A DNA stretch of 64,000 nucleotides from Onthophagus taurus (taxonomy: Eukaryota > Arthropoda > Insecta > Coleoptera > Scarabaeidae): positions 12,035,501 through 12,099,500 of the forward strand of contig NC_091970.1 in NCBI RefSeq assembly GCF_036711975.1. The letters are read 5' to 3'. This document shows, piece by piece, positions 11,073-39,938 of the stretch. A program made the position numbers and the translations under genes. Under the pieces are notes generated by a model. That model ran no database searches. It saw only the letters and a list, made by a program, of their open reading frames with translations, and was not told where the DNA came from. Positions within the stretch are counted from its first letter, which is position 1; each line of letters opens with the position of its first letter.

Positions 11073-11125
11073 TATATTGTTATAACTTAAATTTAAAAAA
11101 ATTAAATTCTGTTTATATACATATA

Positions 11126-11999
11126 CAGGGTGGTTCACTTTTTAATCGGGAAACTTTACTAGGATGTAGTACTTGCCAAAATAACATAAATTTTTTATAT
11201 AAACATAGGGTCGCAACTCATTTATTTTCGAGCTATGAGCGATCAAAGTTGAGAAAAAAATTTACATTTTGTTTTGTATTTCGGCTGTAAGTAAACCGTA
11301 GAATTTGAAACTTTGTACGTATGTATTACTGGTTAAGACCTTATTTTCAAGCATACCTTAAACTTCCGCAGCGCCCTCTAAGGGGATGAAATTCATCACC
11401 CCCTTGATTTTTTTTATAATAACTTTTTAACGTTGTGGAATATTAACATAAAAAAATATGGGTTGTAAAGCTCATTCTTTTGTGGTACTTTTTTGTCTCT
11501 TTAGTATTTTCCTTAAAGTTAATAGTTTCCGTGTAAAAAAATAAAATACCGTGCCATGTACCGCTATGTGCCGTCATGTTTAGCTAAAATTATTCTAAAA
11601 GTTGGCTCTGAGAACTTGTAAGTTTCATTTACAGTGAATCCTCATAATTATTGCTGGTTATTAATAATTTTTGACGGTTATTGAGCAAGAGTATCAATTT
11701 TTAATATTGTTTAAAACAACGTAGTTTGTACCTTATTTATGGTTTTTCTTATGAAAATCTCAATTAATTGGTGGTATTTAGTTAGTACTAGATCCTAGTA
11801 AGTGCACAACTTCCATAGCCACCTACAAAGAAAAAAAAAATTTTATAATAGCAGCAAATTTCAAATTCTATTTTTGGTTTAACTTTGAAAAGCTCGAAAA
11901 CAAAAGAGTTGCGACCCTATGTTTATATCAAAAACTTTTATTATTTTGGCAAGTACTACGTCCTAGTAAAGTTTCCCGATTAAAAACTGAACCACCCTG
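11126..11999. mobile_element. Non-autonomous mariner-type element (0.87 kb)
   Basis: The ends are CAGGGTGGTTCACTTTTTAA and its near inverse, both next to TA. The inverted arms run about 150-170 bases (TTACTAGGATGTAGTACTTG against CAAGTACTACGTCCTAGTAA). The interior has no transposase remnant that I can recognise. Confidence 0.85.
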
Positions 12000-12505
12000 T
12001 ATAACATATATAATACTTAATTCATTTTAAAGTTTCCACCGAGTCACCATCAAAACTGCATCTAATGACTCTTCTCTAAGTTTCCTATATGTATAGTTGC
12101 ACATACTTACCAATCTTCACAAGGAACTCGTATGTAAAATCTTCCGGAAGTTCCACTAATTTCACATCATGAATGTTTTATTTTGGCAAACATAATTAAA
12201 ATTAAAATAATCGTTCTTTCTTTTTATATCGCGTAAATCAGGTCTCGAGACGCTATCGAGTTCCGACTCGTTTAGTAGATGATCGTTAAATTTTAGCTGT
12301 ATCACACCACATGTTGATCACGTGGTACCGACGAGTAATCCCGAGCAAAATAGTGCGGTGCCTACGAAGTACCCGAAGGAAAAGTACATGTCTATATAGT
12401 GTAAAATTTAATGTTTTATATATTACATAACTTCACTAACATAAGTAAAAAAGAACTCTCCTTTAGAGAAATGTAAAAACTACTCTATTAAGTGAATAAT
12501 ATATC
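12000..12505. other. Own sequence of the CACAGG element, no gene
   Basis: AT-rich filler between two nested elements, ending in ACTCTAT/AGTGAATAATATATCGTCGG. I see no coding sequence or hairpin. Confidence 0.45.
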
Positions 12506-12506
12506 G

Positions 12507-15224: not shown

Positions 15225-16070
15225 GAACTCTATATTAATATTAAATATAGTGTACATTAGAGTTATTTTTACCATGTGATATTACAATTTTTACTCTAAT
15301 TCTTTTTACCAACTACTCTAAAATTTTTACACGACACAATTTTTTCCTGTGTACTGTGAAACACGATGGTGGATCAATTATGGTTTGGGGATGCATGGCG
15401 GCGGCTGGGGTAGGGAATTTGGTTTTTATTGATGGAATTATGGACCATTTTTATTATCTTAACGTATTAAAGGAAAATTTGCGTGCCAGCGTTGATAAAC
15501 TAAATATAGGAAGGATATGGATATTTCAGCTATATTTCAGATCCTAAACATTCAGCGAAGATAGTTAAGGAATGGCTGTTGTATAATGTTCCAAAGCAAT
15601 TCAATTCCCCACCTCAGTCCCCTGACCTAAATCCCATAGAACACTTATGGAACGAAATTGAAAGAAGAGTGAGAAAAAATAGGATAATGAGCACAGCCTC
15701 CCTTAAAGAAGCGATTTTGAAAGAATGGGAGAATATTACGCCCGATGTTACTAGAAACTTAGTATCGTTGATGAAAAACCGTTTAAAAACTGTTTTAGAG
15801 CAGAAAGGTGGACCGACACGATACTAGTTATTTATTTAATAGGAATTTTTCTTCAATTATTTTGTTAATAATTCGTTGTACAAACACTTTCGCGTGATCA
15901 GAAAAAGTAATTTATGTTTGTTATCTTTTTTAATTCTTACTAGAAGCATATATTTTAATTTTAAATCATTATTAATATGTAAAATGTTTCATAACAGTTA
16001 TAAATAAATAATTATTTTGTTCATAAATACGAATTTCTAGCCTGTACGAAGACTTTCGTGACTAAGTGTA

Positions 16071-17146
16071 AAACATTAAAATCAGTCAAACCGTTCTCTA
16101 GTTATAGTCGATTTAGTTTAAATTAATTTTTTTATATTGGGGGATAGACTTTCTTTTGCAGGACATTGAAATTCGATTAGTGCGTTTTATTTTAGTAAAA
16201 TGACGTAAGTTTTATTTGAAATGTTTCGAGAAAACGAGTAATTTTTTTATTGAAAGGTTGAGTTTTAAAACCAAAAAACGATTTAAAACCGCTTCGCCCC
16301 GTCGTCTTTACATTTTATGTTTATTCACCTCCAGTATTCCTTCTTCCCACAATAAATTAAGGAGGGGATGTTTGGAAGTTGATTCGCTAATAACGCATTT
16401 TAGTTGATATGCGGGCATTTAAGGGTGATAAAGTAGTTTAGAAAAAAAGACTTATTACTTAAATTAAGTGATAAATGCGTGCTATATTTATGCTAAGTGT
16501 TAGGTGATATTAGTGATGTGATATAGGACATCATGGGATTGCTATTTTATGGATGTTAAAAGGTATCGTATTAATTCATTTTTTTGTCACAATAAATTAG
16601 TTGATCGTTTCTTTCCAGCTGAGCTTCGAAGTAAAATCCAAAGAAAACAACATCAATTCGGTGAGTCGTTTTCAATTTTATTAATTGATCAAAACATATC
16701 GGGAAAATTCGCGATTTGAACTTTGTAATTTTTCCAGATAAAAACCGTTTGAACGCTACTCCTTGGATTTGTGCTTGAAAAACGGTACCATTCAATAAAT
16801 TTTTGCATTTTGTGCTTGAAAAATTATAAAGCTTTAATCAATATTGTCAAAACATGAAATAATTTGAAATTGAGTGTAAACCACTCCAAATAATACTAGT
16901 ATAATTCAAACTTTTTAATGGGGGAGTCTCTTTTTTAAATTATGTTCAAATTATGTGGTATTTCAATTTAATCTTTTGCATATTATGTTTTCATGATATA
17001 TTTACTTATTTAAAAAGAATTGTTTATACAAAATAATCTTTACATTGTTTCTCAACCAAGTTGGTACGTGGATTGTCTAAGTTGCTGGTTGACATCCTTG
17101 AAATGATCTGAAACTCAAAAATCAAATTATGTTTTTTTCTATATAT
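16071..17146. other. Interior of the 22-kb unit, no gene recognised
   Basis: The first ~90 bases (ATTAAAATCAGTCAAACCG...) repeat, in the same orientation, the segment at 25520-25610 just upstream of the PHD ORF1. They also invert the end of the left arm (GACTGGAAGTCTAG). From 16160 on I find no homology. Near 16770-16830 there are two GTGCTTGAAAAA words like the termini of the IS630-like copies. Confidence 0.5.
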
Positions 17147-18989
17147 GTAGGTACTTGTGTTAAATTGGCACTAATCAGAATCAAAATGACATTAGTCAAA
17201 ATCATATTGGCAATGTCAATTTCAAATTGGCATTAGTCAAAATCAAATTGACATTAATCAAAATTAAAATGGCATTAATCAATATCAAATTGGCAATAAA
17301 CAATATCATATTGGCATTAATCAAAAGCAAATCGGCATTAAACAAAATCAAAATGACACTAGTCCATATCGTATTGGCACTTATGAATTTTAAATTGACA
17401 TGGAAATAAAATTATATATCAGCATTAAATAAAATGAAATGGGCAAAAACATTTTATTGACTTACAAACACAGTAGATAACAATTATATTACTTAAGAAA
17501 GTAGGTAACGTTATGTTTTAAATAACACTCTTAAAAATTTATATCTTGCATATTCAATGGAGAAGGGATAAATCGTTGGATGTGGGCAATAAACATTGCG
17601 CAATTGGCAACAGTAATCTTGTCCATATTATTATGAACGGTGTTCTCTAATTTCTACATTCGATATTCTGTTTGAGTCAGATCATCCCGGTCAGCACCAG
17701 CCAAGATGTTATTTAGCTGTACAGCCATATCTGCTTTTACTTCTGCTTTTAATGCAGTCCACGCTTGTTCAATAGGATTAAACATAGGGCTGTACGGACT
17801 TAGTCGTAAAAGTGTGTGGTGTTCAAATTCGTTTTCTGCAAAAACCTCTTCAATAGTAGAGTGGCATGGAGCATTATCAATAACTAATACAACTCCAGTT
17901 TGGTAAAGGCCTTGCGCTCTTCTTAGGCATTGCCTCACAAATTCATTTGCTTCCGGCTTCTTGAAAGAGCCCCGACGTAGTTCGGAATGAATTAGCCCCA
18001 TGTTTCCAATGCATCCTATTAGGTGAATATTCGACCCTCTGCAACCTGCAGACACTGTTGTGCAGCGAGTCCCTTTTTTTGAACGACCCTGAGTCCGCGA
18101 TATGAACAAATTAAAGTTTGTCTCGTCCATGTATATGATAGGTATATTTTGTGCTTGAAGATCCAATAAATTTTCTACATAAATACTCCTGCTTGTTTTC
18201 GTTTGAATACTATTCGCGTTCTCTGGTTCTCTACGAGCAGTCTTCATCATCCATTATCCTACATTTATCGTATTATCATACATCAATCCATTGAGAAGCT
18301 GTCGAACGCATTCGTTGGAGTCATTGAGTGCAAAATCTTCACGGATTTTTTCACTCAGTCCTTTAAGTGTAATTTTAGGATTTTCTTCGACTGAACGTTC
18401 CATGAATTGACGGTGCTCATCAGTTATTTTAGCTCTACGTTTACCTCCTCGCCGCTTTTCCGGTTGTTCTTGGTTGTTAACCCATCGATACGCGGTTCTT
18501 TTTTGGCACCTGTAGTACGTTTGCAAGATTACGCCAGTCACCATTGGCATTATACAAAGCGCAAATCTGTGTCCTCAGATTTGCAGCAACATTTTTCTTT
18601 AAATAAGGCATCTCGTGTGAATATAATAGTTGAAATCTCGCAATAAATTACCATAAACTTGACAATAACCGATAAGTTAACAATTGTTTGACACCGATTT
18701 ATATATTTAATTTTCATGCCATCTTGATATTGTTTGGTGCCAATATGATATGGACTAATGTCATTTTGATTTTGTTTAATGCCAATTCGCTTTTGATTAG
18801 TGCTAAATTTGTTGATTAATGCCAATATGGTATTGTTTATTGCCAATTTGATATTGACTAATGCCATTTTAATTTTGATTATTGTCAATTTGATTTTGAC
18901 TAATGTCAATTTGAAATTGACATTGCCAATTTGATTTTGACTAATGTCATTTTGATTCTGATTAGTGCCTATTTGTGCTTGAAAAGGTA
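17147..18989 (-). mobile_element. IS630/Tc1-type transposon with subterminal repeat arrays
   Basis: The right end is GCTTGAAAAGGTA plus TA at 18990. The left end, around 17147, is decayed (TAGGTACTTGTG). Each end carries an array of degenerate ~20-bp repeats of the form CAAATTGGCATTAGTCAAAA (about 17160-17440 and, inverted, 18720-18985). Short open frames in these arrays are not genes. The transposase is at 17531-18611. Confidence 0.88.
17531..18611 (-). pseudogene. IS630/Tc1-like DDE transposase, several breaks
   Basis: Starts at the ATG 18609-18611 (MPYLKKNVAANLR). The frame is lost within the first HTH, resumes as KRTAYRWVNNQEQPEKRRGG (18550-18254) and again from ARREPENAN (18250). The catalytic core is complete: IIYMDETNFNLF, VLVIDNAPCHST and PYSPMFNPIEQAW. 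By my count 35 residues lie between the second Asp and the Glu, so DD35E. A nonsense TAG follows TEYRM near 17654, and the tail resumes beyond it to TAA at 17531. The copy at 37795-38809 carries Gln at that codon. It is dead through small indels, although the active site is untouched. Confidence 0.9.
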
Positions 18990-19417
18990 TAGAACTAAGC
19001 AAAAAAAATGTTATTGGCAAATTGGCGCCTAGTCAAATTAAGATAATCGATTTTGTTCTTCAAATCGATAAGTTTATCTCAAAAAGAAATCATGTGTATA
19101 TCGTATCAGTTTCTCTATAGATCATACGATAGAAAGATACTATTTGAAAGTGCAGTTCAAATTTTAAGTCAATCGAATGAGTAGTTTTTTAGGAATCGTG
19201 TTACTAGATGTAAAAAGGATGTTTCGAGAAAAATGCACTTACAGTTTCATGTAATACAATGTTATGCGTGTATACACCTTGTTAATTTAATGTTTATAAC
19301 TTCTACATTCAGCCAGACGCAAGCTTTTCATTTGCGATAATAACAATAATAATAAGCTTAATTTCCATCTTAACAAAAATGCACAGAAAACGTCAAATAA
19401 TATTCAAACAGTCTGAT
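18990..19417. other. Probable 3' untranslated part of retro B
   Basis: AT-rich sequence between the IS630-type element and the stop codon of the LINE on the minus strand. No coding resemblance. A poly-A or short-repeat tail is not evident, so the exact 3' end is not fixed. Confidence 0.4.
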
Positions 19418-21668
19418 TTAATCTACTGTAATGGTTCCAGAAAAAAAATCATTTATCGAATACAAGTTTCGTTCTAAAAGATGTTGTTTGAGATAGCTTT
19501 TGAATCCCGTGGATGGCTTTATTTTCAAACTATTAGGTAGATGGTTGAAGAATCATTTGAAGTTCGAAAACTGCTCTCAAACATTTCTTCTGCGCTATGA
19601 AGATACGACTTAAATCAACCGAATGACCCCAGAAAATGACCCCATACCGCAGTCGCGACTCAACACATGCGTAATACGCACTTGTAGCCGCTTGCACTGA
19701 TACTACGCGCGAAATAGTTCTCAATTCATAGCACGCCCGATTTATCTTGATAGCTAAATCGTTAATATGCTGTTTCCATGAAAGATTCACATCAATTTTA
19801 ACACCCAAGAACATCACCTCTTCTGCACGGGTAAGTTGTTTGCCATTGAATTGCAAATTGATGTCACAGTTGGTCGCTGCAGCACTCCCAATCATCATAA
19901 TGTTTGTTTTTTCAATATTAAGTTGAAGGTTGTTGTTAGAAAACCAGTTATACAGTAAACTGAGGTTATTTTGTATTTGTGCTGACAATTGCTGTTTCGT
20001 TTTCGCAGTTGATACTGTAGTAGAGTCATCCGCGAATAATATTAGTAAATCATCAATTACTCCAGGAAGATCATTGATAATATCGATCCTTGCGGCACTC
20101 ATTGTAGAACCCGTACCCATTTTGATGCTAGTTCATTTCCCTTTTGATCATAAGCGATAACACACTGTTCCCTGTCTGAGAGGTAAGATCTGAACCACTC
20201 TAGCGCAATACCTCGAATTCCCATCTTCATTAAAAGGGTGTCGTGACGAACACTATCAAACGCTTTGGTTAGATCCATCATTATGCAACCGGTAAGTTCG
20301 TTATTGTTTATTCCAGTTAGAATTTTTTCCATCAACTGAAAAATTGCTCTGGTTGTAGATCTACCCTCAATATAGCCATTTTGTGACTCATTCAGTATTT
20401 GATTTTTGTAAATGTAGCTTTTAAGTCTCATCAGTACTATCTTTTCAAAAACCTTCGCAACATTAGGTATTAAAGCGATTGGCCTATAATTCGAAAAGTC
20501 TGATTTGTCACCTTTTTTATACAATGGCTTTACTAAGGTTCTTTTCAGGTGGTGTGGATAAGTTGCAGAAGCAAATGACAGGTTTATAATACTACTTAAA
20601 GGTTCAGCAAGATAATCGACGCAAGCTTTAGAACAGAGATCGGAACTTCGTCGTAACCAACTGCAGACGTATTATTTAAAGACATTATGACTGATTTTAT
20701 TTCACTAGGATCAGTCAGATAAAACGCAAATGATCTGTTTACGTCGATATTTGTTTTTATAGTGTTGTGTACTTGTACATTAATCATTTTATCAACCGCT
20801 ATATTGGCAAAACAAATATTTATTGCATTCAACAGTTCATTATTACTTTTGTAATTGTGTTGAAAATCACATAAATCGAGATCTTCAGATTGCTTATTTT
20901 GTCTGAGCGTATTGATGGTATTCCATGTAGCCCTTACTTTATTTTTAGCTGTTTCTATAAAATTGGTGAAAACAGTTCTTTTTGATATCGCTATTTCGTT
21001 TCGAACATGTCGGGAGTAAATATTGCAATATTCTTTATCAATTTTACCCATTAACATTCCTTCATATAGTTGACGCTTCACACGCGTTTTGTTTTATATT
21101 TCTTTTGTTAACCATTTATTAGTAGCCGATTTAACATTGGTTTTAATTAACTTTTTCTCTGATTTTTTAATTATGCAATTATGTATTACATCTATGAACT
21201 TGTCATATAACTCGTCAGTCTCTTTATAGCTACTTAAAAAATTCCCATCAATTATATGTATTTCAGCATGTATTTCTGAGAGAATTGTATTGCCAAATAT
21301 ACGTTTTTTTTAGCATTTTTACTTGTGTGTTGCCATCTATAGTTGTTATTGGAAAAGATATCTTCTGCGCTGTATGATCGGAAAGAGTTGAAATGATTAC
21401 TTCACTGTTACAACTTTCTATGTTCACATAAATATTGTCAATAAGTGAGCTGGAATATTCAGTTATCCGTGTTGGTTTGTTGATAGTTGGTCTAAGATTG
21501 TGTCGGTTAAGCATATCTAACAATCTGAGAGTATTAGTATTTCTATTTTCTAGATTTATATTTAAATCACCAGTTAATAATAATTTAGTTTTCAATGTTT
21601 GCGGTGAACATTCTAATAGTATGTTCTCTAAAATGTTAAAAAAAGTCTTCTATATCCGATTTTGGTGA
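19418..21668 (-). pseudogene. Non-LTR retrotransposon ORF2 (retro B): endonuclease end, RT and C-terminus
   Basis: Read on the minus strand: the second half of an APE endonuclease (KLLLTGDLNIN, then LSDHTAQKISF), a linker, then the RT fingers (VGYDEVPISVLK, LYKKGDKSDFSNYRPIALI), palm (MMDLTKAFDSVRHD, LILFADDST) and the terminal KPSTGFKSYLKQHLLER, ending in TAA at 19418. Breaks seen: a frameshift near 20625; TGA replacing the Gly codon before VPQGSIL; a deletion right after it that removes the usual GPLLF segment; and a larger C-terminal deletion near 19545. The FADD catalytic motif is intact. Sequence style is CR1/Jockey-like. The 5' part of the endonuclease lies at 24649-25190. Confidence 0.88.
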
Positions 21669-22950
21669 TCGGTGTTGTAATAATAACCATTACCAGCAGT
21701 TTAGTCTTGTTTGATTATCGTATTGATCGTAGAAGAGTTTTTTTTAAACAATTATAAAATAATGTTAGATACTATACACTAGTGAATTTCGGTACATTTT
21801 ATTGTTCTTTAATGTTCTAATCCTAAACTATCACTTGTAAAGTCGATGCGAAGTAATTTTAAAGATTCGATATTAGATAACCTCAATTTAATTTTTTCAA
21901 AATTATTTATTTAAATCTTTATCTACCCGGATCATACCTATTTATTAGAACGATAAACTTAACTTGGTTAACAAAGAAAATAATTAATATTTGTATGGAA
22001 TAATGAAATTTGGATGAAAATTTACAAAATTAGTTTGAACATATTGGAAAATTTATAGTTGAGATCAGAAGAAAATGAATGGATATTTGAAAATTGTTTT
22101 AAAAGAGCATCAAAACTACGAAATATCACGCATAATTATAAATAATTTTAAAAATTTAAATAATAATTTGACAAATTGAATTAGAGACATTTCAAATGTC
22201 AAAGTTGGCTACATTGAAAAAACTAAGACACAAATTCCAAATCCATAAATTTAACCAATCAGGAGAGGTTATTTGGAAATTTAACATCCGAAAAACGGAA
22301 TTTATCAACAAAAAGAGTGTGCTTCCTGTTGTCTAAAGAAACACACACATTTTTTTTGCTCTGCTGAAAATTATTTAAATCAACGTGTTAACGAGTTTAA
22401 AAAAATATATCCGTTCCTGTTTAACTCTGAAAAAAAACAATTCATCTTGTTCCTATTAAAGAAGAATATCCGTTCCTGTTCAATAATTTCGAAGAAACGA
22501 TTAAATTCGCTCCTGATCAAGTAAAGCAATTGGTTCCGTTTCTGGTAGAAACCATCATCACTAGTGAAGAGAAAAATTGGTTCTCAATCCTGAAGCCAAC
22601 CATCACCTGTCACGAAGAAAATATTATTCTGAGTTTGACCTCCAAGGTTCCCATAGAAACTAATTGGCTAAGTTATTTTTTTTTATAATTTATTGTTTTT
22701 GTTGATACATTTTTTAAAGAAAAAAACTCTTCTTACCTTCAATAAGAGAAGTTCTTGATAAATTCAATATAATTTTTGAGATTACTATTAAAATTTCCTA
22801 ATTAATTTAATATTTGACGAGTTGTTATACATATCTGAGTTGATAAATATTACTTCGAATCAACTAATTTAGAATATTTATTTATATAATCAGTATATTT
22901 TGTTAATTTTGTCGACAACATCTCAATTTGATTGCACCTTAAGTTGTGTA
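21669..22950. other. No gene recognised
   Basis: AT-rich insertion between two parts of retro B. A pair of near-repeats (ATATCCGTTCCTGTT at about 22409 and 22469) may be decayed coding sequence, but all frames are broken and I cannot assign it. Confidence 0.4.
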
Positions 22951-24563
22951 CAGGGTGGGCAAATTTGGGTGTTATTATAGGCTATCTCAGAAACTATAAG
23001 AGATACAAAAAAAGTAGGTGCCATGTCCCGGTCTCTTTTTCCGAGACTAATCCAATCGCGTAAAGACCAAATCTCTATCTTCTTTTGTTTTTAAGTTATC
23101 GCCAAAAAGTCAAATTCTAGTGATTTCAAAAAATGCTCATATTTCGTTTATTTTTCAAATTAGAGAAATGGGGTTAATGCATTCTTAAGACACTTTTTTG
23201 AGTAGAATTTTTGAGATATAACATAAAGTTGTATTTTTTTAAATACAAACTATACTTTATTATGATATTACTGAAAAGAGCATATTTTTAGCTTTCCAAT
23301 GATGTATCGCACGCATGATGTTTCTGCGGAAAATAAGCGTTATTTTTCAATTTTTAAAATATTAAAGATTAAAATTCAAATTTTTAATTATAGTAGGCGA
23401 GGAAAACGCTAAATACTACTTAGTTACTATAGCAACGTGAGTTTACTTGTCATTTCATTCATGAATTTTGCGAAACAAGTTTCCCGTTTAAGAAGTTCCG
23501 CATTATCTTTAAATAAAACGATAAAATTAAATATAGAATATATTGGAGTCCGCTTTGAAGATGATACATAAGTCTTCATATCCCCATTCAAACGGTGTTT
23601 CTCCGAAAGTCCGCTCCCAGTTTATGATTCCTAATTTTCCTCTATCTCACTCAATTTCAAAAGAAAAGATTGCTGATATCAAAAAACTTCTACATCTTAT
23701 GTTTGGGGAAAACTGGGAAAATACTACCGAAGATTTCATTCATTGATACCGAACTGTTCTAATCTTACAACCAGTAAGTTGAGTAGAAGAAGATGACAGT
23801 TTATGACTGTTTAGTTCCTGAAGTTGTCCATATTTAATTATTCATTAATTAATACATTTCTTGTATTTTTAATAAACAAACTTTAAATGCTAATCATTTT
23901 TTATTGGTAAACAAAGTCAGGGATAAGATGCTGAGAAATTTAAATTAACTATTCAAAGTTTTTATTCGTTGGTACAAAACCAACTTATCCTGAATAATGG
24001 TACAAAACCAACTTTATTCTGTCATATTCGTGCAAAACCATATATTATAGCCACTAGGTAGTATTTACTGTCCGGACACGCCTACTATAATCAAAATTTT
24101 GAACATTAGCGCTTACTATTTTCGAATTGAAAATTAACGCTTATTTTCTGCAAATACACCATACATGCGATACATCATTGGAAAGCTAAAAATATGCTCT
24201 TTTCTTTAACATCATAATCAAGTATAGTTTGTATTTAAAAAAACACAACTTTGTGTTATATCTCAAAAATCATCAAGTATATTTAAAACTTTTCAACGGC
24301 AGTATATTCTACTTAAAAAAGTGTCTTAAGAACGTATCAACCCCATTTCTCTAATTTCAAAAATAAACGAAATATGAGCATTTTTTAAAATCACGAAAAT
24401 TTGTCTTTTTGGCTATAACTTAAAAACAAAAGAAGATAGAGGTTTGGTGTTTGCGGGATTGGCTTAGTCTCGAAAAAAGAGACCGGGACATGGCACCTAC
24501 TTTTTTCGTATCTCTTATAGTTTCTGAGATAGCCTATAATAACACCCAAATTTGCCCACCCTG
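22951..24563. mobile_element. Palindromic mariner-type element with arms of about 500 bp
   Basis: The ends are CAGGGTGGGCAAATTTGGGT and its inverse, next to TA. The arms pair for roughly 500 bases (GACATGGCACCTACTTTTTT against its inverse, then GTGTCTTAAGAA, then CTTTCCAATGATGTATCGC). No transposase is present. The centre holds a short coding-like segment (23543-23746). Confidence 0.88.
23543..23746 (+). CDS. Passenger coding-like fragment inside the palindromic element
   Basis: An open frame of 67 codons (MESALKMIHKSSYPHSNG, PLSHSISKEKIADIKKLLHL, FGENWENTTEDFIH). It has normal amino-acid composition, unlike the AT-driven frames around it, and no obvious homology to a mariner transposase. 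It may be a captured host exon or the relic of another transposon gene. I do not recognise the family and it may not be expressed. Confidence 0.35.
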   Translation: MESALKMIHKSSYPHSNGVSPKVRSQFMIPNFPLSHSISKEKIADIKKLLHLMFGENWENTTEDFIH

Positions 24564-24648
24564 TACATGTTTGTCTTGACAGTATTACCAGAACCTGCCT
24601 TAACCCTGAGATAATTCGACAATTCTGTTTAAATATTTAATTTTTTTT

Positions 24649-25190
24649 TCAATTTAATAAAAAACAAATTATTATAAAATTTAGTAATGTTGTTTTCATT
24701 AAAATAATTCTTCTCAAAAGAAGAGGGACTATTTGCAGTCCATTTGGAAAAACATTACAGTATATACAGATAATCGTTACTTTTTGTACATTTAATTTTA
24801 TAGCACTACATTCAATAACAAATTCTTTACTTTTGTCTTTTATATTCATCAGCTCCGTGTACTTGAGATCGTTACGTACTAGTATACAGCTGCCCCCATG
24901 TTGATTATTTACCCTTGAAAATGTTGAAGCCACTTTATAACCATCCACTAGTATTACTTCATCAGCTTTCAACCAATGTTCAGTCAAAGTTATTACATTT
25001 ACAGTGGTATCTAAGGATTCTATGAAAACAAGCAGTTCATCAATTTTATTCCGAATACTCTGAATGTTCTGATGAATCACTGTGAAAATCATTGGATTGT
25101 TTGATTCGTTGGTAGTAGTTATGGTATTAATATAATTAGTAAAAGTAGGAGCAGTTGTTATAGATACATCATGTTCTTCTATGTTGATAC
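24649..25190 (-). pseudogene. Retro B ORF2, N-terminal half of the APE endonuclease
   Basis: On the minus strand the frame runs from about 25190 (EEHDVSITTAPTF) through MIFTVIHQNIQSIRNKIDEL to VTIICIY. It shows the QN motif (HQNIQS) and the catalytic Glu (TLTEHWL) of the AP-like endonuclease. Near 24755 the resemblance ends. The domain resumes at 21668 (SPKSDIEDFF...), so intervening DNA, including the palindromic element 22951-24563, has split it. Joining is inferred from domain order and strand; I have not aligned the halves to one reference. Confidence 0.78.
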
Positions 25191-25225
25191 GTACTCCTGA
25201 TGGTCATAGCGTTGGTTTTTTTGTT

Positions 25226-25507
25226 TCATTTTGATATTCTATAGGTACTGATGTTATCGATATATGTCTTAAATTGTTGAAAAAGCGGATTTTCTCCTTC
25301 CAACTCATCCGAGTTTGAGGTTATATCTTTAGTACAATTACAGCAGATCCATGTTTTAATAGATCCGTCTTCTTTCATGGTGTTGAACTTTCCGACACTC
25401 ACTTGTACACATTCTAGGTGGTAATTGTGACCACAATTTCCGCGACAAGCGATATAATCAGAATTTCTTTGTATGTTTTTAAAACAAAGCGCACATTCAA
25501 TCGCCAT
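25226..25507 (-). CDS. PHD-finger ORF1 of retro B
   Basis: Starts at the ATG 25505-25507 (MAIECALCFKNIQ); an upstream in-frame ATG at 25543 is less likely because the family start is close to the first Cys. The 93-residue product is nearly all PHD-type zinc finger: CALCFK, then CRGNCGHNYHLEC and WICCNCTK, giving the Cys4-His-Cys3 order. A PHD finger in ORF1 occurs in several CR1- and Jockey-like LINEs, where it is thought to help bind nucleic acid or chromatin. ORF1 is usually longer, so this copy is probably truncated (stop after STYRISK). It lies immediately upstream of the endonuclease segment. Confidence 0.75.
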   Translation of the reverse strand: MAIECALCFKNIQRNSDYIACRGNCGHNYHLECVQVSVGKFNTMKEDGSIKTWICCNCTKDITSNSDELEGENPLFQQFKTYIDNISTYRISK

Positions 25508-26201
25508 GTTGAAATTTATATATATAACATTAAAATCGGTCAAACCGTTCTTTAGTTATAGCGAATTTAATCAAAATTAATTTTTTCGTATTGGGGACTA
25601 GACTTCCAGTCGGTAGATACGTGGAGTCATTTAAATAACCGTACGTAGGTAATTAGTAAATTTTGAAATCGGGCATTTCCGCCTTCGTATTCATTGTAGA
25701 TCATACTTTCGATCGAGATGTTGATGACTAAAATTGATCAATGACTTATTTGATTAATTAATTTTTTTGTGTTTTAATCAAAATCCTTATATTGTATTCA
25801 AAATTGGTTGCTGGGCGATTTAGATAAAAATAAGGCAGATGGTACAATAAAAAAATTGCATATTTTGCATATTTTTACAATTTTTTTGATTGTTGCATAA
25901 ATTGGCCTTTTACTGGCCAATTACTTGGCAATTACTATTTACTTGGCCTTTGATTGTTGCTTAATAAAATAAATATAATGACTGCGTGATTTTTAAATAT
26001 GCGAATATACGCGTACCTTTTAGTTTAAAGCACAATACAGGATATTTTTGATTACGGGTTGGTTTCTCGTTTACAACGATTAACAGAAACATGCGGGGAA
26101 TCCCTAGCGCTGTTGAGTTTAAGTTCAAGGAAATCCCCAACCATAGTTACTGTGGCTATGTTCAGTGTGAGTGAACATTAATCTACCAATCTATAACAAC
26201 A

Positions 26202-26294
26202 ATGCCTAAAGTGATATCGTGTCTTGTGTCCCAGTGGGTAAAAAGTTATCCCGAGCTAAATTTAAATAATGAGGAATTATTTTGTAAAACTTGA
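26202..26294 (+). pseudogene. N-terminal fragment resembling hAT/CGGBP1-type proteins
   Basis: ATG at 26202 opens 30 codons (MPKVISCLVSQWVKSYPELN, then ELFCKT) to a TGA. Beyond it the same frame continues as AKNHVVAF, so the TGA probably replaces a Cys codon of the usual FCxxC pattern. The layout (short N-terminus, W..SYPEL, LFC.TC.K) matches the beginning of CGGBP1-like/hAT-derived proteins. Nothing further of the protein is present. Confidence 0.5.
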
Positions 26295-26436
26295 GCCAAA
26301 AATCATGTCGTAGCGTTTTAGCCATAGATTTAAGTTAAAAATTAGAGTTTTCAGAGGAGTTGCCAATGGTTTGTTCCGAAATTGTATTTCTCATAGACTT
26401 TTACACTAGGTTAGTTTGAAAATCCATGTTGCAAGT

Positions 26437-26598
26437 TTACAAATTTTGAGAATGGAAATTGAAACTTCTTACTTGCTTTTTGAAATTTATTTTAACGGTA
26501 CCAGTTTCGGTACTGAGTTTTTCCCGAAACTGGTACCGTTAAAATAAATTTTAAAAAGCAAGTAAGAACTTTCAATTTCCATTCTCAAAATTTTATAC
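26437..26598. repeat. Near-perfect hairpin, arms about 72 bp
   Basis: TTTTGAGAATGGAAATTG ... AACGGTACCAGTTTCGG is followed after a ~12-base loop by its inverse CCGAAACTGGTACCGTT ... CATTCTCAAAA, with very few mismatches. It lies inside the hAT-like relic. Confidence 0.88.
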
Positions 26599-27196
26599 TA
26601 GGAGTTAAAAAAATGGAAAACTGTTAAATTAAAACTAAATAAAACTATATTATAGAATTAAATTTTTTTTCTGTTAGAGTATCTATGGTTAATTTATTTA
26701 ATTATTCTTTTTTAAGATAACGTGTGAGAGGAAGTCCCAAATAGAACAACATGCGAAAAGTGCAAAACATATACAAAAATGTGGCAGAAATAGATTGATA
26801 ACAGCTATAAGAAAGGTATATGTTTGCATATTTCCACATATTTTTGCATATTTTTTGCATATTTTGAATAAAAAGCTTGCATATTTATGCGCATATTTCC
26901 TATAATTTGACTGCATAAAAATCCGAGCTCTAGTTATCACCACTTAAAAAAGGTCATTTTTGTGTTGTTTTCGTGTACCTTCGCATTATTTTGGCGTTTT
27001 AGCGGAATTCGAAAGGGATTTCGAATCGGGCATTTCCACTTTCGTATTGGCCAAGGATTGAGCTTTCGAATGAGACATTGTTTATCGAAATCGGTTGACT
27101 GGTTCTCTTGTTATAATCAAAATAGTATACATGTAAAATCCTATCTAATTGGGGGCTAGAAAAATTGGGGGCTAACTTCGCATAGGTTTGAGAAAC

Positions 27197-30366: not shown

Positions 30367-30703
30367 GAGTGCGGGAAGTTAGCCCCCCTTTTTTTGATTT
30401 TTAAATTTTTTATTGTTGTTCTAGATTGTTCTAGAGTTGTTCTAGAGTTGTTCTACATTGTTCCAAAGCGGCAAATCGAAAAAATAAGAACTCCGCGAGA
30501 AACTCGAAAAAACGGGTTTTTAGGCTAGCCCCCCATTTTTGGAAAAATCAAATTTTCTTTGTTGTTCTAGTTGTTGCTCTAGAAAATCAAAATTATGGGA
30601 TACAGCATTACGAAGTTATAACTAAAAATAGGTTTGGCCGCGGAAATGTCTAGTTGATTGCTGTGACGATAGTTTTTCTATTATCAATTCCATATTACAA
30701 ATA

Positions 30704-32818
30704 CAGGTGTCCCGTTAAGCGTACGGAGCGGCTGTATCTCGACAACGGTAAGGCCTAGAGGTTTGGGAAAAAAATCTTTATAAGCAAAGTGTCCAAGAGA
30801 AATAGCTGGAAATTATTTTGAAGTTCGTAATTCGACCGCTAGAGGGCGTAACTGCCATTGAGAAACATAAAATTGCCGCTATCTCAGAAACTTAGACGAT
30901 GAGCTACTATAATTTTGACAACATCATTTAATAGCTTGGATAATGCCGCATCGCTTTTATTTTGCGATATTTCTCATTATTGTCATAATAAGGGAGGGGG
31001 AGGCCAATGCATTTTCATATGATTACATTTTAATATCTCCTGGACCATTCAACCGATTTGAATATTTTTGGTATTGTTTGAAAGAGCATTTTATGCTCTT
31101 TTTAAAGATATTTTCAATAAGACTGTTTGCTTTAAAACAAATAAGCTAGAGGGCGTTATCTGCAGCGATTACATATTTTTGTGATTTTTTAAGAAAAGTT
31201 AAATGGAACGATACTATTTACTTCACAGATTCTTGGTCACCTTAAAATTTGCTAATTTTAGTGAAAACCGCATCTCGATATCGCCACCCGTTCTCGAATT
31301 ATAGAAGAAAATGTTAAAAACTCGAGTGCTATCAATCGGATCCAGTTACCTCATCGATAAAAACAAATCACATAACCACGGTAACTGTAAACATGTCATT
31401 TACTAACGCCGAAGCGTATTATAGAGTGTATGATGATTTATTTTCAATGTTTCGAATGCGATGCAACTGCATGGCAAACATATGCAATGCAATTACGACA
31501 AAGAAAGACATTTTTCTCTAGAAGTGTTTTTAAGATTGATTTAGCGTTTACGGAAAACTGGCAACGTGTAGCCCATTCAGACATCTCTATGAATTTGTAA
31601 ATCATATTGGTGCGTAATGTGATCCCACATAATCTGGGAAAACAATTGTCCACAAGATTCCTCAAGAGAATAATATCTCCACCACGTTGTTTTACATCAG
31701 GCCTTAACATATACCGATTATGATAACAGACTGAACTATTATCGTTAACTTTTAAATATGATTTGGACAAATCCAAACCTTTTATCACAAATGCTATGGA
31801 TGCATGAAGCATCTGTCCACAAGCTGGTGTAAACTAGCATAATATGCATTCTTGGTTCGAGCAAAACCCACATTGCTTTCACCCCTTTATCTATTGCGTA
31901 GACGAAACGACCTGACTTTTCATGAAAAACCAATAACCAGGGAGAATATGACAAAACTCTAAATACCAGTAGAAACGTGTCCAGGGCCGAGACTTAAGCT
32001 TTTAAGTTTTTTTTCGTCGAAACTAGATTAAATAAATGCATCGAGGTTTATGGAAGGCATTTCGCACATTAGTGAGCTATTTTTGCCAAAAATTTAAGTT
32101 ATTCTAAGTGTTTTGGTTTATTTTGTTTTATTATCATTGTTGATGTTTCATTGATCCGTTAACTTTTAAACACGCCTCAAAAGTAGTTTTGAAGCAGTTC
32201 TAGGCTTGGATAAAGTGTGATGAAGGGTCTAGATAATAAAATTTTTGTGCTCTCTTATTTGTTTCCTAAGATAACTTGATCCGATTAAAATATACGAATT
32301 TTTAACATTCTTCTATAATTCGAGAATGGATGGAGATATCGAGATGCGGTTTTCACTATTATTTAGCAAATTTTATAGTGATTAAGGGTCTGTGAAGAAA
32401 ACAGTACCGTTCCATTTAACGTTTTTTCAAAAATCACAAAAATATGTAACCGCTGCAGATAACGCCCTCTAGCTTATTGGTTTTAAACCAAGCGGTCTTA
32501 CTGAAAATATCTTTTAAAATGCCTCCCCCTCCCTTATTATGACAGATATGAGAAATATCGCAAAACAAAAGCGATGCGGTATTATCCAAGCTACTAAATG
32601 ATGTTGTCAAAGTTATAGCTCATCGTCTAACTTTCTGAAATAGCGGGAATTTTATGTTTCTCTATGGCAGTTACGTCCGCTAGGGGTCGAATTACGAACT
32701 TCAAAATAATTTCCAGCTATTTGTCTTGCCCACTTTGCTTATAAGGATTTTTTTCCCAAACCTCTAGGCCTTACCGTTGTCGAGATACAGCCGCTCCGTA
32801 CGCTTAACGGGACACCTG
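30704..32818. mobile_element. Palindromic TA-inserted element in the left arm
   Basis: The ends are CAGGTGTCCCGTTAAGCGTA and its exact inverse, flanked by TA; the target sequence is seen uninterrupted in the right arm near 37350. The arms pair for about 650 bases (CAGCCGCTCC... and AATAATTTCCAGCTATTT against its inverse). In the centre a start-like frame at 31393 (MSFTNAEAYYRVYDDLFSMF) resembles the first residues of mariner-type HTH proteins. The opposite strand (31444-31954) holds an unassigned frame with VFHEKSGRFVYAIDKG. No DDE motif is visible. Confidence 0.85.
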
Positions 32819-33634
32819 TATATACTTATTATAGCTAACGCAATCTGGAACAGCTATTATTTTCACTAGAACAACTCTGTAAAGGGCACTTTACTCTTTG
32901 AAAATTAAAGTTTTTGGAAGTTTCAGACAGTAATTCTTGTGTCAGCGGTTTTATATTACACAATAAGAATTAAAAAACATAGACCAATCTAAAATAACTC
33001 AAACTTTGCCGATTGAAATTGTTCTAGATGTGTTTTATGTTTAACACGGATATTAATTTTGCAAAATCACATATTTTTTGTTGCTCTAAATTGTTCTTGT
33101 TGTTCTAGGTACTTAAAATGTTTATTTAATCACTGCTTTAGTTCTTTTAAAGTTTCATATTAAAAATTAGTACTTACAACAATTAAAACAATTCAGAACA
33201 GCTGTTATTTTCAATGAAAAAATCTTAAATTTGAGTTGTTGTGATATCGGATAGGTTTTGTTGAATCAGCACCTTTAATATAATAATAGTTTTAGAAAAT
33301 TAAAAAATATGGAATAATCTGACCATCTAATTTCCTAAAAATCACCTTTCTCTTTAAACTTATAATAATAAAACATAAGTTGCGATTTAAAGAGTATTTT
33401 ATTTTGTAAAACAAGGTAATAAATTAATAAATAAACTAAACTAACAAAACTAGGTTAGGCTGCCAAAATGTCTAGTTGATTGCTGTGACCATAGTTTTTC
33501 TATTTTCAGTTCCATATCACAAATATATACTTATTATACCTAAGCAATCTGGAACAGCTAATATTTTCACTAATACTTTTTAAAAATTAAAATGTTTGTA
33601 AGTTTCAGTTAGTAATTCTTTCATAAGTTCATAA

Positions 33635-34346
33635 GTAAGTTTCAAAAATATCTATTTCAATAAAAAATATATTGTTCAAAATACTTGCGGATTCGGCAGT
33701 ATATTTCATAGTTTAGCATTTGCCCGTACACACAATTCATTTAGAAATCATGTTGAGAATGTTTGCAGAGATTGCTTTAGTTTCCTAAAATTATTTTTAA
33801 AAACCGGTTCTATTAAAGCAACATATAAAAAAAGAGCTGAACTATTAATAGGAATAAATTATTTTGGAAACCAGAATATTGCTGGCGTGATAATAGTGAA
33901 ACCTTTTTCAAATATTGCGTTTCTTTGCACAGAACTATTTAAAGAAGAATTTAGTTATTGTAGGACTAAAAACTGCAATAATAGTTTAAACGTTACTTTC
34001 CATAAAAACATAATTTTACCAATCGATATTGACATCGTAACAATATTTGGCTATGCGCAGCTAAAGAAAGTAATAGAAAACTACATGCAAACTCTAAGCA
34101 ACAATTGCAAAAAATGTGGTCTGTTTATAGAAACAACGAATGGAGAGAACAATAAAACAAAATTGAGTGATTTGCACGCAATTTGTCTTTGAATCTTTAA
34201 AATCTTTGAATGATGTAGGACACTACCCGGCATTTGTGCCCAACAATGCCAATTGGATATTATTTAATGACTTACGAAAAAAAACCGTACAAGTTGAAAA
34301 AGCTACTGAAATAAATGCACAAATGTGCAACCGTATTATTCCATGA
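33635..34346 (+). pseudogene. USP-like (C19) ubiquitin peptidase domain encoded in a transposon
   Basis: The open frame follows TAA at 33632. QNTCGFGSIFHSLA (Cys at 33686-33688) matches the USP Cys box NTCYxNSxLQxL. A middle region has paired-Cys sites (YCRTKNC, then NCKKC about 60 residues later), like the zinc-binding fingers domain of USPs. After one frameshift near 34185 the C-terminus reads LNDVGHYPAFVPNNANWILFND, matching the His box GHYxAYxxxxxxWxxFDD. About 235 residues, short for a USP (normally 300 or more), so it may be a minimal or truncated domain. USPs cleave ubiquitin from proteins. The role in a mobile element is unknown; shielding an element protein from proteasomal turnover is one guess. 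Apart from the frameshift it looks intact. Confidence 0.66.
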
Positions 34347-34818
34347 TATTAGTTTATTTACATAATTTAGTTTATTTAGTTATAGTTTACCTTACACTGA
34401 GAAAAACCGTTATTCCCTTCCTTCCTTTTCTTAAAAAACAACCAATACCTATATGCAACGTTATTTTTCTGGTATAAAAATTAGCGACCTCTTCGCATCT
34501 TTTTCCATTACTTCTTTCTTTCCTTTTCTCAGTCTACTTTTAAAAGGTCAGGGGCGTATTTCGGATTATTAATTTTTAAAATAAAACAATATTTATAATT
34601 AAAACTGCAACTTCGTTATGGCACCGACCTGTTATTTGCTAAATTGATAACGATAACTAAATGATGGTATGATACATATTAATAACTTACCAATATTACA
34701 AACAGGTGACTTACAGATACCACTTGCTTGATTAATAAAGAAAAATGGCAGGCGCCAGTTGAATCGACTTGTCGTCTTGATGGCGGCGCGTCCCTTTGTC
34801 AGGGCTAGCTGCATTATA

Positions 34819-36030
34819 CAGGGTGTATCTGAATGACTGCAACAAACTTCAAGGGGTGATTCTTTAGGGAATTTTAAGGGTACTTTGATATATGAACCAT
34901 TGGCGAGTTCGGGTCCCCTAAGGAGCTACACCCCTCCAAAAATGGCTGAAAATTTTGGTTTAATTTGTTTTTCTCAAAAACCATAAACGCTAGGAAAATG
35001 AAATTTGGGGAATATGTTTAACTCATAATAGGGCATGTTTTGACCATACTTGTACTTTTAACCTACCCTTCTAAACTACTAAACGTAACCACCCCCTTCA
35101 CATTTTTGCTAATATTTTTTTTATAGATAATAAATACATTAAAAAAATTTTATCTAGGTAGATGAAAGTATCCTAAAACTTTTTTGTCTCTCTAAAATTT
35201 TTCCAAAAACGACTAATTTTTGAGAAAAAAAAAATAATAAAGCAAACACTGCCCGTTAAACAACGGGGTTGTCGATCAAAGATGGAATGAATTTTTAATG
35301 AAAAAATCTTAGTAGGCTTTGGAAAGTTTGTCAGAAATATTTTTGACGTTTAAATGTCAGTGTTTTTCTTATTATTATTATTGTTTTTCAAATTAATTTT
35401 TAAATAAAGTTCTATCGCACTTACGCTCGTTCACTCGACGTTTCAAAATTTTAAATAAAACAATAATATAATAGTACGAAAACCACTGACATTTAAACGT
35501 CAAAAATATTTCTGACAAAGATTGCAAAGCCTACTAAGATTTTTTCATTAAAAATTCATTCCAACTTTCGATTAACAACCCTACAGCTTAACAGTTAGTG
35601 TTTGCTTAATTATTTTTTTTCTCAGAAATTATTAAATTTTCGAAGAACATCAAAGAGACAAAAAAGTTTTAGAATAGTTTTATCTATTTAACTGAAATTT
35701 TTCCAATGTATTTATCATCTTCATAAAAAAAATCTAGGCATAAATTGAACGGGGGTGGTTACGTTTAGTAGTTTAGAAGGGTAGGTTGAAAGTACAAATA
35801 GGGTCGAAACGTGCCCTATTATGAGTTAAACATATTCCCCAAATTTCATTTTCCTAGCGTTTATGGTTTTTGAGAAAAAACAATTAAACCAAAATTTTCC
35901 GCCATTTTTGGAGGGGTGTAGCTCCGTAGGGGAGCCGAAGTCGCCCATGGTTCATATATGAAAGTACCCTTAAAATTCACTAAAGAATCACCCCTTGAAG
36001 TTTGTTGCAGTCATTCAGATACATCCTGTA
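34819..36030. mobile_element. Palindromic TA-inserted element in the centre of the 9.6-kb element
   Basis: The ends are CAGGGTGTATCTGAATGACT and a near inverse (one substitution gives CATCCTG), with TA outside. The arms pair for about 590 bases, including TTGCAGTCATTCAGATAC and GGGGTGTAGCTCC. Only a short spacer (about 35380-35430) separates them, so it is almost a perfect palindrome with no coding capacity. Confidence 0.88.
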
Positions 36031-36032
36031 TA

Positions 36033-37414
36033 GCGCAATCTTAAAAAAATGTTTTGAAAGTTCCAGTTAAATAACAAAATTCAAAGCACGTATTTTTAAT
36101 TTATAATACGGTATTAACAACTTACCTTAATTTATTTAGTTTATGCCTTAGTTTAAACTTCACTCTTACGCGAGCAGAAATGAATAAACGTTTTCCATAA
36201 AAACTGTCGCACATATTTCGGAATATGTTTGTTGTAAATATTAAGTATCTTTACTATTTTTAATTATTTAAGCAATCTGTACTTTTTAAAGAGATTGAGA
36301 ATTTGCTTAACCCGAAATGAGTAAATGTTTTCTATAAAAACATTCGCATTTATTTCGAAATATATTCGTCCTAAATATTAATTGTCTTTAAAGTTTAAAA
36401 AAAAGAACAAACCATACTTTTTAAAATAATCATGAAATATCTTACTTCAAAATGAGTAAACATTTTCCATCAAAACTTTATCACTTATTTTGAAATATGT
36501 CCGTTGTTGATATTAAGTGTCTTGCTATTATAAATGAACTAACCGTACCTTTTAAAACAATCATAAAATATTTTACCCCAAAATAAGTAAACATTTTCGA
36601 TAAAAACTTTCTGACTTACTTCAAAATATATTCATAGTAGTATTAAGTGTCTTACCTATTTTAAAGCAAAAAACCTCACTTTTTAGAATAATCATAACAT
36701 TTTTTAAATTGAACTAATAAGTATTCATCTTAAACGTTTTCGCACTAAATTCAAGAATTTTTCGTTAACTACGCCACCATTTTAATTTAAAGATGATTTT
36801 TTCTCTCAGTGTAGAATAAGTTATTGTACTGATATAGTTATTATTATAAGTTTAAAGAGAAAGGTGATTTTTAGGAAATTAGATGGTCAAATTATTCCAT
36901 ATTTTTTAATTTTCTAAAACTATTATTATATTAAAGGTTGGGTTCACTGATTCAACAAAACCTGTCCGATATCACAACAACTCAAATTTACGGTTTTTCT
37001 AGTGAAAATAACAGCTGTTCTGAATTGTTTTAATTGTTGTAAGTACTAATTTTTAATATGAAACTTTAAAAGAACTAAAGCCGCAGTGATTAAATAAACA
37101 TTTTAAGTACCTAGAACAACAAGAACTATTTAGAGCAACAAAAAATATGTGATTTTGCAAAATTAATGTCCGTGTTAAACGTAAAACACATCTAGAACAA
37201 TTTGAATCGGCAAAGTTTGAGTTATTTTAGATTGTTCTATGTTTTTTAATTCTTATTGTGTAATATAAAACCGCTGGCACAAGAATTGCTCTTTAGAGAG
37301 TTGTTTTAGTGAAAATAATAGCTGTTCCAGATTGCGTTAGCTATAATAAGTATATATTTGTAATATGGAATTGATAATAGAAAAATAGAAAAAAGTATGG
37401 TCACAGCAATCAAC
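36033..37414. other. Centre and right arm of the 9.6-kb element, no further gene
   Basis: From 36130 to 36720 there are several diverged tandem blocks (GAGTAAACATTTTCCATAAAAACTTT-like, each followed by a TATTAAGTGTCTT word) at spacings near 120 bases. After 36840 the sequence is the inverse of the left arm (33400 down to 32819). Confidence 0.6.
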
Positions 37415-37794
37415 TATACCTTTTCAAGCTCAAATAGGCACTAATCAGAATCAAAATGACATTAGTCAAAATCAAATTGGCAATGTCAATTTCAAATTGG
37501 CATTAGTCAAAATCAAATTGACAATAATCAAAATTAAAATGGCATTAGTCAATATCAAATTGGCAATAAACAATATCATATTGGCATTAATCAACAAATT
37601 TAGCACTAATCAAAAGCAAATTGGCATTAAACAAAATCAAAATGACATTAGTCCATATCATATTGGCACCAAACAATATCAAGATGGCATGAAAAATAAA
37701 TGTATAAATCGGTGTCAAACAATTGTTAACTTATCCGTTATTGTCAAGTTTATGGTAATTTATTGCGAGATTTCAACTATTATATTGACACGAG

Positions 37795-38809
37795 ATGCCT
37801 TATTTAAAGCAGCATTTGCAAATCTGAGGACACAGATTTGCGCTTTGTATAATGCCAATGGTGACTGGCGTAATCTTGCAAACGTACTACAGGTGCCAAA
37901 AAGAACCGCGTATCGATGGGTTAACAACCAAGAACAACCGGAAAAGCGGCGAGGAGGTAAACGTAGAGCTAAAATAACTGATGAGCACCGTCAATTCATG
38001 GAACGTTCAATCGAAGTAAATCCTAAAATTACTCTTAAAGGACTGAGTGAAAAAATCCGTGAAGATTTTGCACTCAATGTCTCCAACGAATGCGTTCGAC
38101 AGCATCTCAATGGATTGATGTTTACTTTGACGATTGCTCGTAGAGAATCAGAGAACGCGAATAGTATTCAAACGAAAACAAGCAGGAGTATTTATGTAGA
38201 AAATTTATTGGATCTTCAAGCACAAAATATACCTATCATATACGATGATATGGACGAGACAATCTTTAATTTGTTCATATCGCGGACTCAGGGTCGTTCC
38301 GACAACAGTGTCTGCAGGTTGCAGAGGGTCGAATATTCACCTAATAGGATGCATTGGAAACATGGGGCTAATTCATTCCGAACTACGTCTAATTTGTGAG
38401 GCAATGCCTAAGAAGAGCGCAAGGCCTTTACCAAACTGGAGTTGCATTAGTTATTGATAATGCTCCATGCCACTCTACTATTGAAGAGGTTTTTGCAGAA
38501 AACGAATTTGAACACCACACACTTTTACGACTAATTGTAAGTCCGTACAGCCCTATGTTTAATCCTATTGAACAAGCGTGGTCTGCATTAAAAGCAGGAG
38601 TAAAAGCAGATATGGCTGTACAGCTAAATAACATCTTGGCTGGTGCTGACCGGGATCATCTGACTCAAACAGAATATCGAATGCAGAAATTAGAGAACAC
38701 CGTTCATAATAATATGGACAGGATTACTGTTGCCAATTGCGCAATGTTTATTGCCCACATCCAACGATTTATCCCTTCTGCATTGAATATGCAAGATATA
38801 AATTTTTAA
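37795..38809 (+). pseudogene. IS630/Tc1-like DDE transposase, frameshifted
   Basis: The homologous start is the ATG at 37795 (MPYLK), not the longer upstream frame, which is made of subterminal repeats. An early indel moves the frame, then LRTQICALYNANGDWRNLAN and KRTAYRWVNNQEQ form the HTH. The core has MDETIFNLF, with a two-codon insertion just before it and Asn changed to Ile, then a deletion after RTQGRS. The frame resumes near 38396 with VIDNAPCHSTIEE and MFNPIEQAW. An extra two codons (IV) lie before SPYSPM. The tail LENTVHNNMDRI to stop at 38807 is intact here, unlike the copy at 17.5 kb. Catalytic residues are present, but the frames are broken at least three times. Confidence 0.9.
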
Positions 38810-39254
38810 GAGTGTTATTTAAAACATAACGTTACCTACTTTCTTAAGTAATATAATTGTTATCTACTGTGTTTGTAAATCAATAAAGTGTTTTTGCCTA
38901 TTTCATTTTATTTAATGCTGATATTTAATTTTATTTCCATGTCAATTTAAAATTTATAAGTGCCAATATGACCTATTGAGACCTAAATAAACCCGCATAT
39001 ATATATATAAAAATCCCTTTAAACCGTAATTACTCCAAATAATTGACTTAAATTGGATAAAGAAAAATATTTTTGGTCTACTTCCCCTACTGGTACAATG
39101 TTTTTAAGGAAATCCATCAAAATAGAACATCTGTACATTTCAACTGATTGACGGTAAAATTAAAAAAGAATTTTTATTATAATTATGTTTCATATGCTTA
39201 CCTCTCGCGGAACGATTTATTATATAATGCAATGTATTTATGTGTTTCTCAGTC

Positions 39255-39292
39255 GTGCCTGAAGAAGATTGTTAAATCGAAACATGTCGCAC
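39255..39292 (+). ncRNA. Hammerhead-ribozyme-like motif in a Penelope-type tail
   Basis: GTGC pairs with GCAC (stem I). Then come the core CTGAAGA, one extra A, a 4-bp stem GATT/AATC with loop GTTA, GAA, the self-complementary ACATGT (minimal stem III), and C before GCAC. Order and core bases match the short hammerheads reported in Penelope-like elements. The extra A before stem II departs from the consensus, so self-cleavage is unproven. An AATAAAG tail follows. Confidence 0.5.
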
Positions 39293-39938
39293 TGAAACAA
39301 ATCTAAATAAAGAATTTTCATCGTTTCTATGAGATTTATTGAATTAATACTTACGATGAACACCGAATCCACTTTAACAAAAATATGATATGGACTAATG
39401 TCGTTTTGATTTCGTTTAATGCCGATTTGCTTTTGATTAGTGTGATTAGTGTGTTGTTTAAATTTGTTGATTAATGCCAATATGATATTGTTTATTGCCA
39501 ATTTGATATTGACTAATGCCATTTTAATTTTGATTATTGTCAATTTGATTTTGACTAATGCCAATTTAAAATTGACGTTGCCAATATGATTTTGACTAAT
39601 GTCATTTTGATTCTGATTAGTGCCAATTTGTGCTTGAAAAGGTATAGACATTTCGGCGGCCAAACCTATTTTTAGTTATAACTTCGTAATGCTGTATCCC
39701 ATAATTTTGATTTTCTAGAACAATAACTAGAACAACTAGAACAACCCAGAACAACAAAGAAAATTTGATTTTTCCAAAAATGGGGGGCTAGTCAAAAAAC
39801 CTGTTTTTTCAGTTTTCTCGCGGAGTTTTTATTTTTTCGATTTGCCGCTTTGGAACAATGTAGAACAACTCTAGAACAATCTAGAACAACAATAAAAAAT
39901 TTAAAAATCAAAAAATGGGGGGCTAACTTTCCGCACTC

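Follow-up and report, generated by a model that had tools for sequence, protein, structure and literature searches.

Introduction

Foldback elements have long been genetic curiosities, and the pattern known from FB is one of long inverted arms that contain short tandem repeats. Transposition of NOF-FB in Drosophila is still described as "not currently known" (PMC8834629). Rehavkus has been described with a PHD finger (PMC6446971), and 164-bp repeats are given for Rehavkus-1_TC (PMC10218199). Here, we analyzed a 64,000-nucleotide stretch of the Onthophagus taurus genome (NC_091970.1, positions 12,035,501 to 12,099,500; referred to as the window), which holds two large units with inverted arms: the family A unit at 30367-39938, carrying a deubiquitinase-like gene, and the family B unit at 4987-27187. 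We consider it highly probable that both are non-autonomous foldback transposons of the NOF-FB / Mutator-like kind, whose autonomous parent encodes a transposase with a C-terminal USP peptidase. On sequence grounds, the deubiquitinase-like gene appears to be the broken tail of the element's own transposase and no captured cargo, and better-preserved relatives look as if they end in a working ubiquitin-cutting enzyme.

Peptidase domains are known from several other transposons. Ginger1 transposases carry OTU or ULP1 domains, a C19 peptidase is found in one Trichomonas transposase_11 protein, and the Mutator fusions named in the available part of the same source carry ULP1, not USP (PMC2836005). 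VTD and OTU domains occur in Helitrons, where they have been suggested to protect proteins on which transposition relies (PMC9741609). The elements analyzed here resemble Ginger1 and the VTD/OTU Helitrons in that transposon proteins bear added ubiquitin- or SUMO-type peptidases (PMC2836005, PMC9741609). They differ in the transposition proteins and in the peptidase families, the C-terminal domain here being USP, neither the OTU nor the ULP1 of Ginger1. No description of a USP domain in NOF-FB or Rehavkus proteins was found in the literature covered, outside which lay Repbase reports and most subscription journals. Against this background, the window element itself is ordinary, while the transposase-USP architecture is the interesting part and is new as a protein architecture.

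The USP-like frame and its parent gene

The earlier note had placed a USP-like gene at 33.6-34.3 kb, outside the nested insertions. Its frame was located as follows, and it indeed belongs to the family itself.

33660..34321 (approximate extent of the frame), + strand: relic of the transposase's C-terminal USP domain, in two frames (33635-34189, then 34167-34346), with a 36-bp deletion

The window protein alone reached at best E 0.1 in Pfam and 0.67 in PDB. Because single-sequence scans of this frame and of the related frame on contig C3 gave matches at chance level only, a family profile was needed, and USP was identified in the relic through the profile of the relic's family.

At C3:15253628, a broken gene runs from a DDE transposase into the same USP domain; a 575-aa frame ends in this domain and includes the transposase E motif as well. 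Upstream pieces with the DATG, CDFDKAL, and HLDISH motifs lie in several frames with other repeats between them, and the gene is flanked on both sides by pieces of family A arms. A piece of C3 also matches the window at 49565-49627 and 51834-51896, 21 residues each; these matches seem to mark the border of an insertion within the C3 gene. A related, nearly intact element at C7:19737911-19744396 has a 9-bp target duplication (TGGTTTCAG), ends ACGTCTGTGAAGTTAGCACC, arms 99.3% identical over 913 bp, and 162-bp repeats in 4.2 and 7.0 copies. Its protein is a 917-aa frame with both transposase and USP domains.

Mutator-like elements tend to take up host gene fragments (PMC6446971), and some non-autonomous copies hold just the USP fragment, as would be expected had a piece of a host USP gene been captured Pack-MULE-style, with a peptidase unrelated to transposition. 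However, the USP domain shares one frame with the transposase at C3 and C7, and the transposase E and the peptidase Cys are both present in 44 of the 49 proteins that span both columns. Since the domain forms the transposase's tail, we rejected host capture and regard it as extremely unlikely; host USP genes in this genome were not searched for. Thus, the proposal of a non-autonomous family that captured a peptidase survives in its first part; the peptidase is what internal deletion has left of the family's own transposase, namely its C-terminal domain. The window copy would hold only a dead peptidase piece because the rest of the transposase gene was deleted.

A transposase fused to a USP domain

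The best fold match of the transposase core is ISCth4, and the predicted model places a DDE with a C/D(2)H motif in an RNase H fold. Profile and fold searches assign the C-terminal domain to the USP fold with a zinc ribbon. The DDE with D(2)H, the ISCth4 match, and the 9-bp duplications (13/24 pairings, and C7) are shared with Mutator-like and IS256-type elements. In contrast to Mutator-like proteins, just 2 of the 33 aligned members match Pfam MULE (PF10551), with a best E of 0.0017. The curated cut-off is not reached by P0002 (15.2 versus 27.6, E 0.029), and by the same scale the member with E 0.0017 should also fall below it. NOF-FB-named relatives occur in ants and wasps (P0012, P0017, P0071, P0086, and P0091, the last named "Similar to NOF"), and P0017 is identical to the C7 protein at 47% over 290 core residues and at 35% over 356 C-terminal residues. 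A mobility protein that goes unrecognized, the other proposal of the earlier note, is accordingly half right: general models barely see the protein, but its relatives carry NOF-FB names.

The Cys-His-Asp/Asn triad is present in 19 of 21 complete proteins. The fold does not decide the substrate of the C-terminal domain, which might act on SUMO or another ubiquitin-like protein, or cut the transposase itself, instead of deubiquitinating. All 13 sequence-profile matches of the domain are named ubiquitin carboxyl-terminal hydrolases, which argues against such a role; we hold it to be possible but doubtful. Some insect gene predictions labeled "USP domain-containing", such as P0054, may be accounted for by transposase-USP genes.

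ULP1-bearing relatives

Two distant relatives of the transposase in the same genome, L077 (977 aa; G000:C3:1636300-1643800) and L078 (1143 aa; G000:C11:12819500-12827000), end in ULP1, not USP. The Pfam ULP1 matches lie above the cut-off, with E 2e-10 in L077 and 1.1e-10 in L078, and both proteins group with P0092 with a support of 1.000 in an unrooted FastTree analysis of 68 cores. L078 contains inverted arrays of a 162-bp repeat with at least 11.8 and at least 7.1 copies; its units and those of C7 (L072, L073, L078) have the same period and no sequence similarity.

The 9-bp duplications and the long arms with 162-bp tandem repeats (C7, L078) are Rehavkus-like features, and L077 and L078 resemble the published description of Rehavkus, as far as the available text goes (PMC6446971, PMC10218199). 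Unlike Rehavkus, the scanned USP-type proteins show no Pfam PHD match, either in C7 and P0001-P0006 at E ≤ 10 or in the 33 aligned members (A1) at E ≤ 0.01, whereas the ULP1-type L077 has a PHD match of 19.0 bits, under the cut-off of 24. We give an even chance to the view that a clade of insect foldback transposases became fused to a catalytically conserved USP, with a sister lineage in the same genome having ULP1 in the same place. If both enzymes are active, transposition would depend on the removal of ubiquitin or SUMO at the transpososome, the enzyme class being exchanged and the activity kept.

Structure of the two window units

As the earlier note had noticed, the two units have inverted arms and nearly identical terminal words; their exact ends are 30367 and 39938 for family A and 4987 and 27187 for family B, and GAAGTTAGC is the core of the terminal motif common to both families. 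The window contains four end-word matches at ≤1 mismatch versus 0.24 expected, a number reached by none of 100 shuffles. In the 290.8-Mb genome, the end word gives 781 matches (396 forward and 385 reverse) against 22 (14 and 8) for the reversed control, so that the search suggested for further copies did find them. The parts of the family A unit are listed below; L009 is a clean copy of the same family.

30367..39938, no strand: family A non-autonomous foldback element, ends GAGTGCGG(G/A)AAGTTAGCCCCCC, with nested insertions inside
30367..30703, + strand: left inverted arm, outer part
30701..32821, no strand: nested insertion within the left arm, bounded by inverted ends of its own (AGGTGTCCCGTTAAGCGTACGG) and seemingly inserted at a TA site
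32819..33371, + strand: left arm, inner part
34391..36814, no strand: further insertion with inverted ends near CACTGAGA, missing from L009 (borders approximate, by eye); a 131-bp tandem repeat lies within it, as does an inverted-repeat insertion near 34810-36037
36838..37385, - strand: right arm, inner part
37414..39647, no strand: nested transposon, seemingly inserted at a TA site, whose ends are 21-bp tandem repeats and whose IS630/Tc1-like transposase is degraded and gives weak HTH matches
39678..39938, - strand: right arm, outer part

The arms are 95-99% complementary and broken up by insertions. L009 is 2797 bp long, with arms of 883 bp at 94% and the target duplication CCCGATTTC. The window unit is colinear with it in six main pieces at 88-97% identity, and the remainder consists of nested insertions; the unit is a 2.8-kb non-autonomous element plus these insertions. 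Long inverted arms with short tandem repeats, here of 11-bp and 10-bp units, and 9-bp duplications are shared with NOF-FB; unlike NOF-FB, the window copies are without a transposase. The 131-bp repeat at 36.2-36.7 kb was considered as a Rehavkus-type minisatellite and rejected, as it sits in the stretch missing from L009.

The family B unit has the following parts.

4978..4986, + strand: left 9-bp target duplication TTGAGAAAC
4987..27187, no strand: family B element, ends ACCTATGCGAAGTTA(A/G)CCCCCA, stretched over 22 kb by nested insertions
27188..27196, + strand: right 9-bp target duplication TTGAGAAAC

This unit is a family B copy split by insertions, with an exact 9-bp duplication; another copy of the family, L017, measures 2900 bp. 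The two units had been taken for one family, but they represent two, since family B (L017), family A, and C7 have no DNA match to one another in blastn beyond the ends. Neither 4987-27187 nor the fetched family B copies show transposase or USP similarity outside nested family A parts. The lack of DNA similarity beyond the ends would also suit a scenario in which families A and B are mobilized by a different Mutator-type transposase and share with the C3 and C7 elements only a likeness at the ends. We consider this unlikely, because the C-terminus of the C3 gene is present in family A and the gene itself is flanked by pieces of family A arms.

The length of the target duplication, read from copies as had been suggested, is 9 bp. 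The flanks are identical in 13 of 24 end pairings; two further pairings have one or two mismatched bases, one agrees after a one-base shift, and eight do not match. The pairings derive from 20 C1 loci and the two window units, two of them being alternative partners of one left end, and an unpaired family A end within L012 was excluded. The C1 loci are a sample, drawn from 100 of the 781 end-word places, all on C1.

Within the family B unit, a 420-aa open frame at 13027-14289 has no Pfam match at E ≤ 0.01. The nested transposons at 17162-18976 and 37414-39647 end in long 21-bp repeat arrays, and a DDE_3 domain is recognized at 17657-18250.

Decay of the USP relic

The USP relic has at least 156 matches in the genome, a lower bound, as 150 of 348 candidates were scored. 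Compared with the C3 gene, the 36-bp deletion is common to 29 of 34 sampled copies. The catalytic His is replaced by Gln in 10 of the 34, and the projected frame is stop-free in 15 (frame changes not counted). In a set of 23 copies, from which six C4 copies judged near-identical by equal scores were excluded, the segregating sites by codon position are 32/32/31, each of 153. The five copies without the whole 36-bp deletion have no third-position excess either (41/49/38). Pairwise dN/dS is 0.49 among the copies (244 of 253 pairs usable) and 0.30 against C3 (23 copies), and codon position 2 shows the least diversity (0.0245 versus 0.039 and 0.044).

Purifying selection on the frame across copies, which the earlier note had put forward for testing, is therefore not clearly supported. 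Evenly spread segregating sites, the common deletion, and the loss of the His point to decay of the relic, whereas a dN/dS of 0.49 and reduced diversity at position 2 point away from full neutrality. The latter two values and the 15 stop-free copies could be taken to mean that selection maintains the USP fragment in the non-autonomous copies, where it would regulate or help in trans; in view of the deletion, the Gln substitutions, and the evenness of the segregating sites, we find this very unlikely. We read the USP frame as old, selected in the autonomous parents, and decaying in their derivatives.

About 20 USP-relic places, many of them equal-scoring, lie over 0.6 Mb of one contig (G000:C4:1.96-2.55 Mb), as if they were part of a large tandem duplication. 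In L013 and L016, matches to the C-terminal USP piece occur in either orientation; the foldback arms of these copies may have grown into the relic.

A possible mechanism of transposition

The autonomous element would encode one protein of about 1000 residues, in which a DDE transposase with an RNase H fold is joined to a USP-type cysteine peptidase at the C-terminus. The transposase would recognize the common end motif, excise the element, and insert it with a 9-bp stagger. The peptidase would strip the transposase, or chromatin and repair proteins at the insertion site, of ubiquitin or a ubiquitin-like protein, and this removal would protect or enable transposition. The ends, the duplications, the fusion, the predicted fold, and the conservation of the catalytic residues are observed here, whereas we infer both the activity of the peptidase and which transposase moves which family. 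A deubiquitinase built into a transposase would tie transposition to the ubiquitin system in a concrete way that can be tested. Alongside the ULP1, OTU, and VTD domains of other transposons, it suggests that several kinds of transposons recruited such activity (PMC2836005, PMC9741609).

Several observations weigh against assigning the window units to a parent of this kind. An intact autonomous copy of family A was not found in the genome, and a C3-type core occurs just once: the search with the C3 core returned C3 itself and 19 more places, all at ≤55% identity. The C3 gene is interrupted, lies in several frames, and is without outer ends, and the C7 frame shifts once near the N-terminus. The catalytic residues are lost in 2 of the 21 complete proteins (P0042 and P0053), and at E ≤ 0.01 Pfam UCH matches 1 of the 33 aligned members and MULE, as noted, only two; the enzymatic activity of the USP domain is a prediction from sequence. 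The transposase is NOF-FB-like by its homology to the NOF-FB-named proteins of ants and wasps. The mobilizer of family B is presumed from its ends and target duplication only. The eight pairings clearly without a matching 9-bp duplication include the 30367-39938 unit, whose flanks differ at 8 of 9 positions, and the pairing set covers C1 copies and the window only. Recombination between copies could be the source of the missing duplications.

Other features of the window

A 190-bp tandem repeat occupies 41325-42305, with 5.2 copies and 90% matches. The region 43261-63903 contains more mobile-element frames, with GIY-YIG, RNase H, reverse transcriptase with endonuclease, DDE_Tnp_4, and TNP-like domains.
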